From the NCBI GenBank assembly GCA_014727925.1, contig WJMN01000027.1:1-46074 (forward strand): a DNA stretch of 46,074 bases, read 5' to 3'. The notes beneath the pieces were generated by a model that saw nothing but the letters and a program-made list of their open reading frames with translations, had not been told where the DNA came from and did no database searches. The position numbers and the translations under genes were made by a program. This stretch comes from Microcaldota archaeon (GTDB taxonomy: Archaea > Micrarchaeota > Micrarchaeia > Anstonellales > Bilamarchaeaceae). How positions within the stretch are numbered: position 1 is the first letter of the stretch; each line of letters opens with the position of its first letter. Positions 5,757 to 38,381 of this stretch are shown here, piece by piece.

Positions 5757-7367
5757 ATGTCTCCGGGAAAAAAATACATCATTGTTTTGGGAACAATAAT
5801 GTCTGGGCTGGGAAAAGGGATAGTAACTGCTTCTATTGGCCGCCTCCTGAAAACCCACGGCTACAAGGTAGTGCCGATAAAGTTTGATGGCTATCTGAAT
5901 GTTGATTGCGGAACCATGAACCCCTTCCGCCATGGCGAGGTTTTTGTCCTGGACGATGGAGGTGAAGTGGACATGGATTTTGGCACATATGAGCGCTTCC
6001 TCAACACTTCCCTCACAAAAGAATCATCAATTACCGGAGGCAAGATATTCAAGTTCGTCCTGGAGAAGGAGAGGAGGGGTGACTACCTGGGAAGGGATGT
6101 CCAGATGGTTCCCCATCTTACAAATGAGCTTAAGAACAGGGTGCGCTCAGTGGGCGAGCAGTCCAGGGCAGATATGGTCCTGGTGGAAGTTGGCGGCACA
6201 GTAGGGGACATTGAAAACGGCTATTTCATAGAGGCAATGAGGCAGCTTTCCGGAGAAGAAGATGTTCTTTTCATCCAGCTTACTTATGTCCCCAGTCTCA
6301 GCCCCGGGGAACAGAAGACAAAGCCCACCCAGCATTCCAATCGCCTTATCCAGTCTCTTGGAATAAAGCCGGAGATAATCCTCTGCAGGGAGCAGGAACC
6401 TCTTACAAAAGAGGCAAAGGATAAAATAGCCCTGTTCTGCGATGTTCCGCAGGAAAATGTTTTTGATGACCCGGCAGTAGATACAGTTTACCAGCTTCCC
6501 CAGGTGCTCAAGAAGCAGAAGCTTTATGATGCAATCGCAAAGCGCTTCAAGCTAAGAAAGACCAAGGTAAATGTGGGGGCATGGAACCGGATGGTCCGCA
6601 GGATAACAAAGCCCCCAAAGAAGCTCCTCAGGGTGGGCATAGTAGGCAAGTATACTGCAGTAAAAGATGCTTATGTAAGTGTGAACGAAGCAATCCTACA
6701 TGCAGCGGCAGCCAATAACGTACACGCGGATGTTTGTTTTGTGGAATCCACAGATGTTGAAAAGAAAGGCACCCAGGCTCTCTATGGGCTAGACGCAATA
6801 ATTGTCCCCGGCGGCTTCGGGAAAAGAGGAATAGAGGGAAAGATTTCAGCAATACGCTATGCCCGCAAAAACAACATCCCCTTCCTCGGGCTCTGTCTGG
6901 GGATGCAGATGATGGTAATTGAGTATGCAAGGTCAGTATGCGGGATGAAGGATGCAAATTCAGAGGAGATAAATAAGTCCACCCCTTACCCGGTAATCGC
7001 CCTTCTTCCTGAGCAGATGAGGATAGAGGAGAAAGGCGGGACGATGCGCCTGGGCTCTTACCCATGTATCCTAGAACAAGATACCCGCTCCCATTCTCTT
7101 TACAAGAAAAAACTAATCCACGAGAGGCACCGACACCGCTATGAGGTGAATCCCGAACTTGCCCCAAAACTTGAGGAATGCAGCCTGGTGATTTCCGGCC
7201 GCTCCCCTAAGAAAGGCATTGTGGAGATGGTTGAATGGAAAGATGGATTCGGTATAGGCACCCAGGCCCACCCTGAGCTAAAGAGCCGCCTTGAAGATCC
7301 AGCACCCCTTTTTGTGGGCCTGCTCAAAGCCGCGTCAGAAAAGAGAAGAAGAAGGAAAAAAGCCTAA
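5757..7367 (+). CDS. pyrG: CTP synthase
   Basis: KYIIVLGTIMSGLGKGIVTASIGRLLKTHGYKV...KFDGYLNVDCGTMNPFRHGEVFVLDDGGEVDMDFGTYERF...GLCLGMQMMVIEYAR. Confidence 0.97.
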   Translation: MSPGKKYIIVLGTIMSGLGKGIVTASIGRLLKTHGYKVVPIKFDGYLNVDCGTMNPFRHGEVFVLDDGGEVDMDFGTYERFLNTSLTKESSITGGKIFKFVLEKERRGDYLGRDVQMVPHLTNELKNRVRSVGEQSRADMVLVEVGGTVGDIENGYFIEAMRQLSGEEDVLFIQLTYVPSLSPGEQKTKPTQHSNRLIQSLGIKPEIILCREQEPLTKEAKDKIALFCDVPQENVFDDPAVDTVYQLPQVLKKQKLYDAIAKRFKLRKTKVNVGAWNRMVRRITKPPKKLLRVGIVGKYTAVKDAYVSVNEAILHAAAANNVHADVCFVESTDVEKKGTQALYGLDAIIVPGGFGKRGIEGKISAIRYARKNNIPFLGLCLGMQMMVIEYARSVCGMKDANSEEINKSTPYPVIALLPEQMRIEEKGGTMRLGSYPCILEQDTRSHSLYKKKLIHERHRHRYEVNPELAPKLEECSLVISGRSPKKGIVEMVEWKDGFGIGTQAHPELKSRLEDPAPLFVGLLKAASEKRRRRKKA

Positions 7368-7711
7368 AGCTCTATTTCCTTGTGTGGAACCGAGGAAAGC
7401 GCATTTTTCAGGCGGTATCTGTTTATTATTCCGCTGGCCCTCTCCATTTTCCCTTTTCTTGATTCCTTTTTGTTCTTCACAAGATATTCCTCAATATACA
7501 GCCCAAAGTCCGAAAGGTTTTCCGAGCCGTCTTCTATTAGTGTGCCAAGAACTTCTGCAACAAGCACCTTCCCCTTCTCATCTGTTCCCCATATGCTGAG
7601 TGCAAGCGCCACCTGGTCCACAAAGTAGTCCTTGTCCTCCATTTTCATCTCCTTCCATATGCGGACCATGTCTTTTTTCCGCACCATGTTTATTTTTTCA
7701 AATGCTCCCAT
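7364..7711 (-). CDS. Hypothetical protein, 115 aa
   Basis: ORF on minus strand in a compact run of small same-strand genes; no family recognised. Confidence 0.65.
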   Translation of the reverse strand: MGAFEKINMVRKKDMVRIWKEMKMEDKDYFVDQVALALSIWGTDEKGKVLVAEVLGTLIEDGSENLSDFGLYIEEYLVKNKKESRKGKMERASGIINRYRLKNALSSVPHKEIEL

Positions 7712-7714
7712 CTC

Positions 7715-8011
7715 TTACGCCTCCCTTTCTCCCCATCCATCCAATGACCGGACGCTTTTCAGGGATTCTGCGAGGATGCTGGCAATTTCTGCAGCTTTCG
7801 GAAGCTTTTTCACCTCTTCCCCGCGGAGACCTTCCTCTGCCTTTCTGAACCCCCCAAGCCTCCTGAGCATTCTCTTCCCCCTCATTTTATTCTCAATTCG
7901 CGCTTCAATTTCAGAAATACGCGCAATTACCTCTGTGGGGTCCCCCATGATTTCCTTTCCCCTCTCCCCTTTCTTTACCCCCTTCTTTGTTTTGCTTGCA
8001 CTCCTTGCCAT
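7715..8011 (-). CDS. Hypothetical basic protein, 98 aa
   Basis: ORF 4 nt from the neighbouring minus-strand gene; no family recognised. Confidence 0.6.
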   Translation of the reverse strand: MARSASKTKKGVKKGERGKEIMGDPTEVIARISEIEARIENKMRGKRMLRRLGGFRKAEEGLRGEEVKKLPKAAEIASILAESLKSVRSLDGWGEREA

Positions 8012-19523: not shown

Positions 19524-20984
19524 ATGAAGGGCAGGCTCATCCATCGACCTACTGCAAAGCATCGTATTGCACCCCCCAGAGTATGCAGTGCAAAAATAAA
19601 GAGGCACAGCCGCCAACTGCACCTTCCGGGATGCTCCCGAATTCTTAAGCGACCAATGCCCGATGCAATTCTTTCTCCCCATGAATCCCATTCCATAGGA
19701 AACCTCAGAAAAATACTTGATGCTAACAGCTATACTCCAAGGGCAAAGAAGTTTATTGAGAAAGCCTATGCATTTTCCGAGAATCTTTACCAGGGAAAAA
19801 GAAGGGATGACGGAACCCACACAATAACCCACCCGCTTGCAGTGGCTGTGCGCGCGGCCAAAATGCGCCTATCTGAATACGCGGTATGTGCTGCCCTACT
19901 CCACGATTCAATAGAGGATACAAACCGTACAAAAAACCAGCCAGGGCAGGTTCTCCCCGACCACATCCTAAATCTTTTTGGAGAAAACCCCCCTGCCAGA
20001 AGATGCGGGGAAGAAACCCTAAAAACCGTCCTCCTACTCACAAAACCAAAATATCTTGACCGGCCAGGAACCCCCAAAAACCTGCGCTGGATTTCCCCTG
20101 ATAACAAACAGTATTTCAGCATAAATGATGATTATCAGCAGTGCTACAAGAGAGAGAACTATTTCTATGATGAGAGGAGCCGTATTTACTATGACCGCCT
20201 TCTGAATTCAGGGAACATAGTTGCAATAGTATTGAAAGAGCTGGACAACATACACAATGCTGAAACAATGAAAGGGATTTCCCGGGAAAAAATAATGAAG
20301 AATCTCAGGACCATGGGGACCAACACCCTTCAGCACGCAGGCATATTTTTTGTTGAAAAAGATGTGCAATACATAAAGGGCCTTTTTAGGGACCTTGGAG
20401 TAACTGTGGACCTCATGCTGACCCCTGCCCGCCCCCGTTCAGAAGTCATTTCCTTTAAATTGCGGGACAGGATTGACCTGGAAACACTTGTTTCCCATCC
20501 CGACCCCCAGTATACCTATATTTCACTCTATGGTTCAATACCCGAAGTCGCCCTTATGCTGGATTATGTTGAAATTGGGCTTCCCCCCCGCCTTGGCCTG
20601 AACTACAAGGAACTTCTGAATATTTATTTCAATGGGGATTTTCTCCTGGAGGAGGGGAAGAGCGTTGTTCCATCCACTTCCCCTGTAAATGAGCACATAC
20701 TACGGGTCGGAGGCTTCCTTGACCAGAAAACCAGGAACAAGGTGCTCCGCCCTTCTGATGAGGAGTCTGGCTATTTTGAACTGCTCGGGTACGGCGGTGA
20801 AGTAGTTACCCGTGCCACCCTTCATGGAGTGAAGGAAGGCGATGTAAAATTGGGGGAACCAACAAGGGAACCTCTTAAGCAGGTTAAGCAGCAATACCAC
20901 CTCCTCAATCTGTACCTTTGTGGATTTTACCAGGACGTCCTTGTCCCAATCCTGGAAAAAATGGACATAAACAAAAGCAGCTAA
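19524..20984 (+). CDS. RelA/SpoT-like HD-domain hydrolase, 486 aa
   Basis: AYAFSENLYQGKRRDDGTHTITHPLAVAVRAAKMRLSEYAVCAALLHDSIEDT ... GNIVAIVLKELDNIHNAETM align with the RSH HD box H...HD..ED...KLADRLHNMRT; no SYNTH domain recognised. Confidence 0.72.
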   Translation: MKGRLIHRPTAKHRIAPPRVCSAKIKRHSRQLHLPGCSRILKRPMPDAILSPHESHSIGNLRKILDANSYTPRAKKFIEKAYAFSENLYQGKRRDDGTHTITHPLAVAVRAAKMRLSEYAVCAALLHDSIEDTNRTKNQPGQVLPDHILNLFGENPPARRCGEETLKTVLLLTKPKYLDRPGTPKNLRWISPDNKQYFSINDDYQQCYKRENYFYDERSRIYYDRLLNSGNIVAIVLKELDNIHNAETMKGISREKIMKNLRTMGTNTLQHAGIFFVEKDVQYIKGLFRDLGVTVDLMLTPARPRSEVISFKLRDRIDLETLVSHPDPQYTYISLYGSIPEVALMLDYVEIGLPPRLGLNYKELLNIYFNGDFLLEEGKSVVPSTSPVNEHILRVGGFLDQKTRNKVLRPSDEESGYFELLGYGGEVVTRATLHGVKEGDVKLGEPTREPLKQVKQQYHLLNLYLCGFYQDVLVPILEKMDINKSS

Positions 20985-35423: not shown

Positions 35424-36548
35424 GTGGTGAGAAGGGATCCTGGCACTTATTTCACTTTTGAGGCTTCCAAGCCCCTCCCCTTCCACCGCTGGTTTTACTA
35501 CAAGGAAGCATTTTCCCCTCCGGTTGTTGATTATTTTCTTGAATATTTTTCTTCCACCGGCCCTGTTTTTGACCCCTTTTCCGGAATAGGCACAACTCCA
35601 CTTTCCTGCAAAGCGTCCGGCTTGAAAAGCACAGCAATAGATATATCCCCCCTAGCTGTTTTTGCTTCACGCACAAAATGCGCAGATTATTCAGAAGAGG
35701 ATATTGGGGCTGCAAAAAATGAGCTCAAGGCCTTTTTCAAGAACCGGCAGGAACCCAGTTTCAGCTGGGATTTTGAGCTTTTCTCACCCCGCAAATTCTT
35801 CTCCAAGCGCAATTACAATGACATCTGCTTTATCCGGGAAAAAATTGAACAGATGGAAAACCAGAAAGTAGGCTCCCTGTTTCTCCTGGCCCTCCTCTCC
35901 ATACTCCCCCAGTCCGGCTTCTTCATAAAAGACGGCGGAGTTCTGCGCCTTGAAAAATCCAAGAGCGCCATCCCCGCAAAACATGCGTTCAAGAAAAAAG
36001 TAAAGCAGATGCTGGGAGATATAGAAATCAGCCCCATCTCCGGCCCTGAGCCGGAAATATTCCTTGCAGATGCCCGCAGCTTTTCTCCCCCTCCCCATGA
36101 ACTATTCATAACCTCCCCCCCATACCTCAACAACATAGACTATTCCAAGGTTTATGGATTAGAGCTTTCCCTGCTTTCTATGGAGAAGAATGCATCCCTC
36201 CAGATGCGCAGGGAGGCTCTGCGCTCATTCATCACAAAAGACTCAAGCAGGTCCGAGCCCCCGGAAGAAGCGGGTGAAATCGCCCACAGGATTCCGGTTG
36301 CAGGCCAGTATTTCTCAGACATGGAGAAAGTGCTCCAAAATCTCTACAAAAGTACAGAAAAAGGTGGTGCCCTGATTGTGGGCAATGCAGTTCTCCAGGG
36401 AGAGCACATAGAAGTGGACAGAATTCTTGGGGAAATAGGGAAAAGAATCGGGTTCGAATATGAAATTCCTCTCTGGATGGAAAGGATTGCGGACGTAAAG
36501 CCGGCAAAATTAAAAGTGCGGGAAAGTGCAGTAGTATTCAGGAAATAG
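35424..36548 (+). CDS. DNA methyltransferase-like (SPPY) class I methyltransferase
   Basis: VFDPFSGIGTTPLSCKASGLKSTAIDISPLAVFASRTK (SAM motif) and ITSPPYLNNIDYSKVYGLELSLL; GTG start. Confidence 0.82.
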   Translation: MVRRDPGTYFTFEASKPLPFHRWFYYKEAFSPPVVDYFLEYFSSTGPVFDPFSGIGTTPLSCKASGLKSTAIDISPLAVFASRTKCADYSEEDIGAAKNELKAFFKNRQEPSFSWDFELFSPRKFFSKRNYNDICFIREKIEQMENQKVGSLFLLALLSILPQSGFFIKDGGVLRLEKSKSAIPAKHAFKKKVKQMLGDIEISPISGPEPEIFLADARSFSPPPHELFITSPPYLNNIDYSKVYGLELSLLSMEKNASLQMRREALRSFITKDSSRSEPPEEAGEIAHRIPVAGQYFSDMEKVLQNLYKSTEKGGALIVGNAVLQGEHIEVDRILGEIGKRIGFEYEIPLWMERIADVKPAKLKVRESAVVFRK

Positions 36549-38381
36549 CTACTTTTTCCTGCCGTTTTTCCTCCTCTCCACTGACTTAAGGTACTTTATT
36601 CTCGCCCTCAGCATTTCAAGGGCTTCAGGAGTGGTGATTTTTCCAATCAGTGCAGTACATGTTGGCCGGTTAATCCCGGTGCTTTCTTTACCCCCCAGCT
36701 CTACAAACACATGCGAGGGGGCCCGGTCAAATATTGCAAGGGGGTTTCCCTCCTTATCCTTTGCTGTTGCATATTCTTCAAAACCAACAAAGTGGTGCTC
36801 TCTTCCCTCTTTGTATTCTATAAGGGCAATGACTCCAGCAACACATTCACCGGGCCGGGTTATTACTGCTTGTTTTTTTGAGATTTCCCTCCTTCCCTTT
36901 CTCCTCTCCACAACTTCAACCCTTGCTACCCTTTCCTTCCTGCCATTTTCCTCCAAACCAGTCCAGCTGTTTCTGGTTATGGATGCTTCTACATTGTTTG
37001 CAAGTTCTTCTATCCTTCGTGACATTGCTTCTACAATTGCATCTGTAATCACATTCCCTACTTTCTTACCCCTAGAAAGCCTTCCTTTTGTGCATTCTTC
37101 CTGCAGCTCCCTGGTCCTTACCTGTATCTCTACCGGAATTTCCCTCTCTTCCCCCTTTTCCCCAACCAGCATCTTTATCTTGAGGTGGGGTGCCCTGTAA
37201 CCTGTTCTTCTTTTTCCGTATTTAAGCTCTTCAAGCTTTATTTTGCCCCTATATGCATTTCCAAGGTCCATTGCAAGGGCGCTTGCCGCCACCAAAGCAT
37301 CCTTGCTCTGCGGCTCCCTGGGGTTTTTCTTTGTTTTATCCACAACAACGGTTATCCCAAGAATGTCAGTAATGTGTTCCAGGCCAAACTTTTCCTCCCC
37401 CGATTTTCTTTTTTCCTTTATTTTCCGGAACATTCTTGAGGAGGATTTTACCCTTGAGCATTCCTCTGGGTCAATTGTCTGTGACTCAAGGCTGAGTTTC
37501 CATGAATATCTTTTTTCAGTTCTCCTAAGCGACCCGTGTATACTCCTCCTGCCCCCAAGAAGTATTTTCTGGGCCCTTTCTGCAAACGGGAGAATTTCCG
37601 CCCTGTACTCCTGACATTTTTTGTATAGCTCCCTGTCATTTTCCATGCCCTTGTAGTTGCCCAATTCCAATATAGTTTCAGTTGCCACTCGTCCTATCTC
37701 ACCGATTGTTTCTGCAGTCATTCCCAGGGTTTCTGCAATAGGATAATGGACCATCTCCAGGGCCTTTCCTGTTTCCAGCTTCTCTTCCTTTCCAAGCTCC
37801 CCCCTGATTCCAAAATATTTTACATGCATCTGCCTGGCAACCAGCACGGGCACAGGGAATTCCCCATCCTGCAGGGGCTCAGCATAGAGCACCCCATATT
37901 CTTTTTCCCCTTCACCTGCCCTAAGTTTGTCCAGTTCTTCAATCATCTGGTATTTTTCCCACAGGGATTTTGTCCTTTCCCTGTATCCCAGAATAGTGTT
38001 TTGTCTCGTGTCTGCCATCTCTTCCCCATGCCTCGCATAAATCAGCGCATTTCTGATTTCTTCATCCCCAAAAAGCCTCTGGATTCTTTTATCAAGTTCT
38101 TCTAGGAATCTGTCTGCACCATTTTTCCCAAGGCATACCATAGCAGATAGGGCGCACGCAGCCAGCCCCTCTCGTATTCCCCTGGGGCCATATCCCCCAG
38201 GCTCAAACAGGCCCCTCATCTCCTCTATCATCCCTTCTGTTTTTTCTTTTCTTTCGCCTGCAATTTTATCCAGTGCATTGCGGTATGCCTTCATTAGCCT
38301 CCCAAATGCCTTCTCCTGCTGCTTTACTAGTGACTTTGGGGGACGGGATGGTCGCGTTGCCCGTTTTCTCCTGGGTGGCAT
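36549..38381 (-). CDS. RelA/SpoT-like nucleotidyltransferase (alarmone synthetase-like), 610 aa
   Basis: SRVKSSSRMFRKIKEKRKSGEEKFGLEHITDILGITVVVD ... RRTGYRAPHLKIKMLVGEKGEEREIPVEIQVRTRELQEECTKG match the RVKS..S..K / D..G / GY...H / EIQ(I/V)RT pattern; preceded by a helical region MVHYPIAETLGMTAETIGEIGRVA. Confidence 0.78.
   Translation of the reverse strand: MPPRRKRATRPSRPPKSLVKQQEKAFGRLMKAYRNALDKIAGERKEKTEGMIEEMRGLFEPGGYGPRGIREGLAACALSAMVCLGKNGADRFLEELDKRIQRLFGDEEIRNALIYARHGEEMADTRQNTILGYRERTKSLWEKYQMIEELDKLRAGEGEKEYGVLYAEPLQDGEFPVPVLVARQMHVKYFGIRGELGKEEKLETGKALEMVHYPIAETLGMTAETIGEIGRVATETILELGNYKGMENDRELYKKCQEYRAEILPFAERAQKILLGGRRSIHGSLRRTEKRYSWKLSLESQTIDPEECSRVKSSSRMFRKIKEKRKSGEEKFGLEHITDILGITVVVDKTKKNPREPQSKDALVAASALAMDLGNAYRGKIKLEELKYGKRRTGYRAPHLKIKMLVGEKGEEREIPVEIQVRTRELQEECTKGRLSRGKKVGNVITDAIVEAMSRRIEELANNVEASITRNSWTGLEENGRKERVARVEVVERRKGRREISKKQAVITRPGECVAGVIALIEYKEGREHHFVGFEEYATAKDKEGNPLAIFDRAPSHVFVELGGKESTGINRPTCTALIGKITTPEALEMLRARIKYLKSVERRKNGRKK

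Follow-up and report, generated by a model that had tools for sequence, protein, structure and literature searches.

A gene for a RelA-type synthetase (designated P0001) and a gene for a SpoT-type hydrolase (designated P0006) were found on the same contig of a Micrarchaeota archaeon, and the two proteins are considered, with a probability of about two in three, to constitute an archaeal 'split Rel' by which a (p)ppGpp-like alarmone would be made and removed. The window, that is, the whole stretch of DNA analysed, comprises 46,074 nucleotides (contig WJMN01000027.1), and its source genome has a size of 1.0 Mb in 59 contigs and a completeness of 88%. Genomes are grouped below by genus and family: g1 is the genus of the window genome, with six genomes, g9, g11 and g12 are other genera, and f8, f18 and f20 are other families. 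The original prediction had placed a RelA/SpoT nucleotidyltransferase in an archaeal genome, which was supported by profile, structure and synteny tests, and had overlooked both the partner hydrolase and the TGS domain of the synthetase. The features of the window are listed in Table 1.

Table 1 Positions of the synthetase, the partner hydrolase, their domains and the neighbouring genes in the window
Feature	Positions	Strand	Remarks
RelA-type synthetase gene P0001 (pseudo-HD + SYNTH + TGS-like)	36549..38381	-	610 aa
Pseudo-HD domain of P0001, residues about 18-245	37647..38330	-	VIA-align and hhalign; metal-binding H, HD and D lost
SYNTH domain of P0001, residues about 246-442	37056..37646	-	PF04607, 35-37.7 bits; Pfam core 37083-37457
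TGS-like beta-grasp domain of P0001, residues about 483-580	36642..36935	-	hhalign, RelA colinearity, model
Methyltransferase-like neighbour of synthetase, TSPPY-type, no Pfam match	35424..36548	+	adjoins synthetase in g1, g9 and g11
NAD-dependent epimerase neighbour of synthetase, PF01370	38438..39328	+	adjoins synthetase in g1 and g9
Partner SpoT-type HD hydrolase P0006	19524..20984	+	486 aa; HD_4, TIGR00691, model
Intact HD hydrolase domain of P0006, residues about 68-290	19725..20393	+	invariant residues; hhalign
Conserved C-terminal domain of P0006, residues about 300-480	20421..20963	+	no relative found

The ORF of P0001 is real and stop-free on the minus strand, a strand that had earlier been left unstated, and the plus strand across the same interval is interrupted by stops. 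The four motifs quoted in the original prediction were all located in the protein, namely SRVKSSSRMFRKIKEK (R310, K312 and K320), ITDILGITVVVD (D339 and T344), TGYRAPHLKIKM (Y395 and H399) and IPVEIQVRTRELQEE (E418, Q420 and R422). Residues 309-433 were matched by PF04607 RelA_SpoT with 35 bits (E 1.8e-8), above the curated cut-off of 27 by which membership of the RSH superfamily is judged, and on this sequence comparison the match is beyond chance; the same cut-off was passed by the orthologs of four other g1 species. The retention claimed for the R-x-K motif, the catalytic Asp, the Tyr/His and the Glu/Gln was borne out, the columns of R310, K312, K320, D339, T344, G394, Y395, H399, E418, Q420 and R422 being invariant in the five g1 orthologs. 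Overall identity between P0001 and its congeneric orthologs is only 25-28%, and mean pairwise identity within g1 amounts to 39.5% in the SYNTH core and about 29% in the pseudo-HD and C-terminal parts. When P0001 was used as a single sequence, no match was obtained in the PDB, where the family profile alone succeeded, and no relative was obtained among the genome contigs. The matches of the synthetase in NCBIfam and PHROGs all stayed below the threshold, and no Rfam family or tRNA was found in the window.

According to its sequence profile and its model, P0001 is a RelA-type [hS] protein with a dead HD domain, an intact SYNTH domain and then a TGS domain, an assignment that follows from the structure match and from the family-profile alignment to E. 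coli RelA. An AlphaFold model was built from five sequences (pLDDT 74.7), and its residues 22-461 were superposed by VIA-align on residues 20-345 of B. subtilis Rel (8acu) with a Z of 18.7 over 304 aligned residues (4.6 A); T. thermophilus Rel (6s2u) gave a Z of 18.3, and the best Foldseek match was RelA on the 70S ribosome (E 6.7e-8). The structure prediction proposed earlier as a check on the RelA/SpoT fold was therefore favourable, as both the HD and the SYNTH domain of the model align with bacterial Rel. The profile A2, made from 39 homologs from the order, was run against the PDB sequences by hmmsearch and retrieved RelA with an E of 1.1e-37 in one alignment from RelA 137 to 503, which spans the end of HD, SYNTH and TGS. 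By hhalign, the SYNTH slice was aligned to SYNTH at 99.9% (E 1.8e-32); with wrong-domain controls under 1%, the N-terminus of 45 family members was aligned to bacterial HD at 96.8% (E 2.6e-10) and the family C-terminus to bacterial TGS at 95.2% (E 2.7e-8).

The part upstream of SYNTH had been described as helical and HD-like with no intact HD box, and it does have the HD fold by model and by hhalign, with the metal-binding residues missing. The HD dyad is absent throughout the synthetase family alignment; the D144 equivalent is kept by many family members and is His in P0001. From the description of a two-part synthetase with a decayed hydrolase half, the decayed HD domain stood and the count of parts did not, since a third part, the TGS-like domain, lies at the C-terminus, where the model has the order strand-strand-helix-strand-strand. 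The Pfam TGS model gave no match on P0001 itself, and a score of 21.2, below the cut-off of 22.2, was obtained for the relative L115. Nor was Pfam ACT matched by P0001, a very divergent sequence whose model past TGS is a helix. Both features that define a long RSH of the [hS] class, an inactive HD-fold domain N-terminal to SYNTH and a TGS domain C-terminal to it, were accordingly found.

Residue roles were taken from RelSeq, RelP and T. thermophilus Rel (PMC7983052, PMC13299517) and were mapped onto P0001 by motif and alignment. RelSeq K243, K251, D264 and E323, the lysines and catalytic acids that characterize an active-type SYNTH domain, correspond to K312, K320, D339 and E418, respectively, the equivalents of D264 and E323 being the two Mg-binding acids (PMC7983052, PMC13299517). 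P0001 has all four, and so do 39/39 homologs, despite a mean column identity of 17% among them; it is consequently hardly credible that the SYNTH domain is catalytically dead and kept as a regulatory scaffold, a reading for which the extreme overall divergence and the variability of the substrate-clamp residues can be cited. Y395 and H399, equivalent to RelSeq Y308, which stacks on guanine (PMC7983052, PMC13299517), and to H312, are each retained in 38/39 homologs. R310, equivalent to RelSeq R241, is retained in P0001. The Thr reported earlier in place of the usual Arg is T344, at the position of RelSeq R269, and is Thr in all five g1 orthologs; T393, at the position of RelSeq N306, is Thr or Ser across the same five. 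R241 and R269 sandwich the adenine of ATP and N306 contacts guanine (PMC7983052, PMC13299517), and all three positions vary in the wider synthetase family. P0001 thereby lacks the complete pair of adenine-clamp arginines, which is not needed for superfamily membership. Because of the replacement of R269 by Thr and of N306 by Thr or Ser, the substrate use of P0001 may differ.

A Pfam HD_4 search of the genome gave a match in the same window (19764-19937), within the gene of P0006, which lies 15.6 kb from that of P0001. P0006 was matched by HD_4 with 35.9 bits (cut-off 27.2) and by TIGR00691 spoT_relA at 7.5e-14. Its residues R94, H103, H127, D128, E131, D132 and D241 are invariant in 15/15 homologs, and N245 is present in 14; they correspond to RelSeq R44, H53, H77, D78, E81, E82, D144 and N148, respectively, with Asp at the E82 position. 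P0006 therefore carries the whole SpoT-type set of H53, H77-D78 and D144, together with R44 and both acids that follow HD. The HD domain was aligned by hhalign to bacterial HD at 99.8% (E 3.2e-30), and the model of P0006 (pLDDT 86) was superposed on SpoT with a Z of 20.3 over 193 residues (3.0 A) and on human MESH1 with a Z of 17.7. The C-terminal 190 residues are conserved across Micrarchaeota families, and relatives of them were sought and not found. A decayed SYNTH or TGS domain was considered for this part and was unsupported (hhalign 0.3-0.5%).

The residues of both proteins bear on the nature of the product. P0001 could be an active pyrophosphotransferase whose altered donor and acceptor sites lead to a product other than (p)ppGpp, such as another nucleotide or an alarmone of adenosine: besides the substitutions at R269 and N306 in the five g1 orthologs, R241 and R269, both substrate contacts in RelSeq or RelP, are variable in the wider family. 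This is judged rather improbable, as the guanine-stacking Y395 is kept in 38 of the 39 homologs and as P0006 retains N245, the equivalent of RelSeq N148, which contacts guanine N-2 (PMC7983052, PMC13299517).

The position of the synthetase gene is conserved. In four of the five other g1 genomes its orthologs occupy the same site, between the methyltransferase-like and the epimerase genes, with the contig ending inside the gene in the case of G003. The methyltransferase-like neighbour carries the TSPPYLNNIDYSK motif, and its place beside the synthetase is fixed in three genera; in three f8 genomes a distant SDR gene lies beside the synthetase. In g1, g9 and g11 the hydrolase gene, for its part, is next to a gene for a HemK-like methyltransferase. 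The contig also carries genes for an FttA-type KH/beta-CASP protein, a proteasome subunit and a PcrB-family (GGGPS-type) protein. Bacterial contamination as the source of the synthetase was rejected on the grounds of these archaeal genes on the same contig and of the close orthologs in Micrarchaeota.

Within g1, identity is 63-83% for the epimerase, 66-80% for the methyltransferase and 33-45% for the partner hydrolase, but about 27% for the synthetase, which diverges much faster than the surrounding genes. Such unusually fast divergence would be in keeping with a toxSAS/CapRel-like effector, either a toxin or a defence protein, that halts growth by pyrophosphorylating tRNA or nucleotides and has the HD protein for an antidote, and so would the fact that PADLOC PDC-S33 is weakly matched by three g1 orthologs (best E 9.7e-8) and the occurrence of CapRel among the structural neighbours of P0001 (Z 9.6). 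This reading is nevertheless distinctly improbable, given that the place of the synthetase is fixed by housekeeping genes across genera, with the distant SDR neighbour in f8, that P0001 is long, with the pseudo-HD and TGS domains filling the rest of the chain, and that the Rel/RelA profile score lies far above that of CapRel (E 1e-37 versus 8e-7). The HD gene lies about 15 kb off and is non-adjacent, and P0001 shows neither the adjacent antitoxin gene or fused domain nor the mobile context by which toxSAS/CapRel systems are recognized.

PF04607 was present in 43/84 genomes of the order and in 66/301 of the phylum. The full-length synthetase and the hydrolase occur together in 5/5 g1 genomes with the synthetase and in 5/5 g9 genomes. 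In G005, the sixth genome of g1, the synthetase is cleanly absent from its site, the flanking genes being about 50 bases apart, and no copy of the hydrolase was detectable; the hydrolase is likely missing from this genome, a grade set because rearrangement has affected its slot and the contig ends there. A gene for a large surface-type protein (L161:2734-4410, plus strand) is found in G005 beside the proteasome gene, where the congeners have the hydrolase. Among the genomes outside g12, 14 had both genes, 5 the synthetase only, 2 the hydrolase only and 5 neither (Fisher p 0.07, with non-independent genomes), a co-occurrence short of statistical significance. The long hydrolase was mostly not found in the g12 genomes. 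From the 5/5 in g1 and in g9 as against this p value and the gaps in g12, the coupling of synthetase and hydrolase has good support in g1 and g9, and in the other groups it is no more than suggestive.

In the SYNTH-domain tree, P0001 belongs to a broad Micrarchaeota cluster (f1, f19) with weak deep support (63/91), the Rels of the f18 Micrarchaeota fall among those of bacteria (100/99), and the f20 proteins with a single SYNTH domain group with a Saccharibacteria sequence (99/90). A recent transfer of the synthetase from bacteria was considered and set aside: the P0001 family, unlike the f18 Rels, is placed outside the sampled bacterial Rels, and this placement, with its deep branches at 63/91, argues against such a transfer as far as a sequence tree can indicate. 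The f18 proteins (L112:1196-3139, L113 and L114) have the classical Rel order HD-SYNTH-TGS-ACT, with 132-142 bits for HD and SYNTH, and are by their sequences apparently of bacterial origin.

Other RSH genes of Micrarchaeota were observed as well. Tandem synthetase-type genes occur in g12 (L048:4871-6256 and 6287-7873; also L054, L059, L063 and L049), where one of the two types stops after SYNTH, without TGS, and shows Pro in place of R241 and, in most cases, Ile in place of Q325; these are possibly an active/inactive pair. A single-SYNTH protein of about 355 aa represents a distinct type in scattered Micrarchaeota (L023, L025, L123 and L127), and L123 and L127, the two placed on the tree, group with a Saccharibacteria sequence. 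In G028 (L027:1-2043, minus strand) SYNTH lies near the N-terminus of a 966-aa frame, unlike in other family members.

Some Micrarchaeota may alternatively have a vertically inherited two-gene circuit of the P0001-P0006 type, in which the hydrolase has a new C-terminal domain and the signal nucleotide is not (p)ppGpp. The signal is taken to differ because both the ATP clamp residue R269 and the guanine contact N306 are replaced, and the proposal as a whole is regarded as unlikely.

The split Rel reading is preferred on the grounds of homology, domain order, residue retention and loss, synteny and co-retention in the genus. P0001 would transfer pyrophosphate from ATP to the 3'-OH of, most likely, a guanosine nucleotide (GDP or GTP), giving a (p)ppGpp-like product, and catalysis would involve the two Mg-binding acids (D339 and E418) and the phosphate-binding lysines (K312 and K320). 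Its HD half is predicted to be unable to hydrolyse, because the metal site is lost, and its SYNTH domain to retain the catalytic machinery. P0006, with a complete SpoT/MESH1-type metal site, would remove the 3'-diphosphate from the same signal and thereby reset it. The pseudo-HD and TGS domains of P0001 may be regulatory. The TGS domain of bacterial RelA touches the 3' end of uncharged tRNA; the domains that follow TGS in bacteria were sought in P0001 and not found. Counting against the split Rel are the substitutions at R269 and N306 in all five g1 orthologs, the merely suggestive co-occurrence outside g12, the scarcity of the long hydrolase within g12 and the failure to detect (p)ppGpp in two archaea, neither of them a Micrarchaeon (PMC8646023).

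P0001 resembles E. coli RelA, a monofunctional long RSH [hS], in the order of an inactive HD, an active-type SYNTH and a TGS domain, and the two are colinear by profile, with 610 aa in P0001 and 744 aa in RelA. It differs from RelA in that the part modelled after SYNTH is made up of a single TGS-like domain plus a helix, Pfam ACT being unmatched, and also in the R269 and N306 positions, in its archaeal host and in an identity of about 12-14% in structural alignments. P0006 shares the HD residues (E82 as Asp) and the fold with E. coli SpoT and the MESH1-type hydrolases; unlike in SpoT, no SYNTH or TGS was found behind its HD domain, where a lineage-specific C-terminal domain is located instead. 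Judged by homology, P0001 and P0006 jointly contain the catalytic functions of a bifunctional Rel, which is one protein, whereas here two separate genes are concerned.

A few archaea with RSHs were recorded by Atkinson in 2011 (PMC3153485), and archaea were said there to be without long RSHs; those divRel and SAS records are archaeal RSHs like P0001, yet SYNTH-only or HD-only. RelA/SpoT genes of predicted bacterial origin were reported in Diapherotrites, Woesearchaeota, Pacearchaeota and Nanoarchaeota in the accessible part of a DPANN survey of 2021 (PMC8407392), in which Micrarchaeota are unlisted and neither architecture nor pairing is given. The earlier statement that alarmone synthesis is poorly described in archaea must be qualified to that extent: according to the same part of the survey, RelA/SpoT genes had already been reported in DPANN, Micrarchaeota excepted. 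The terms ppGpp, RelA and SpoT are absent from the main text of a 2025 Micrarchaeota study (PMC12892359), and no (p)ppGpp was detected in Haloferax volcanii or Sulfolobus acidocaldarius, neither of which is a Micrarchaeon (PMC8646023). In a partial search of the literature, no earlier description of the P0001 architecture and its pairing with P0006 was found.

In most accounts, alarmone signalling belongs to bacteria (and organelles). The occurrence of P0001 in the same slot in several genera, together with an intact hydrolase that has a conserved place of its own nearby, suggests a resident signalling system and not a stray bacterial gene in these archaea, which are tiny and probably host-dependent. 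The two proteins, as judged by homology, represent a natural separation of the two activities of Rel, and with P0001 and P0006 as two defined proteins the use of a (p)ppGpp-like alarmone in archaea becomes directly testable.
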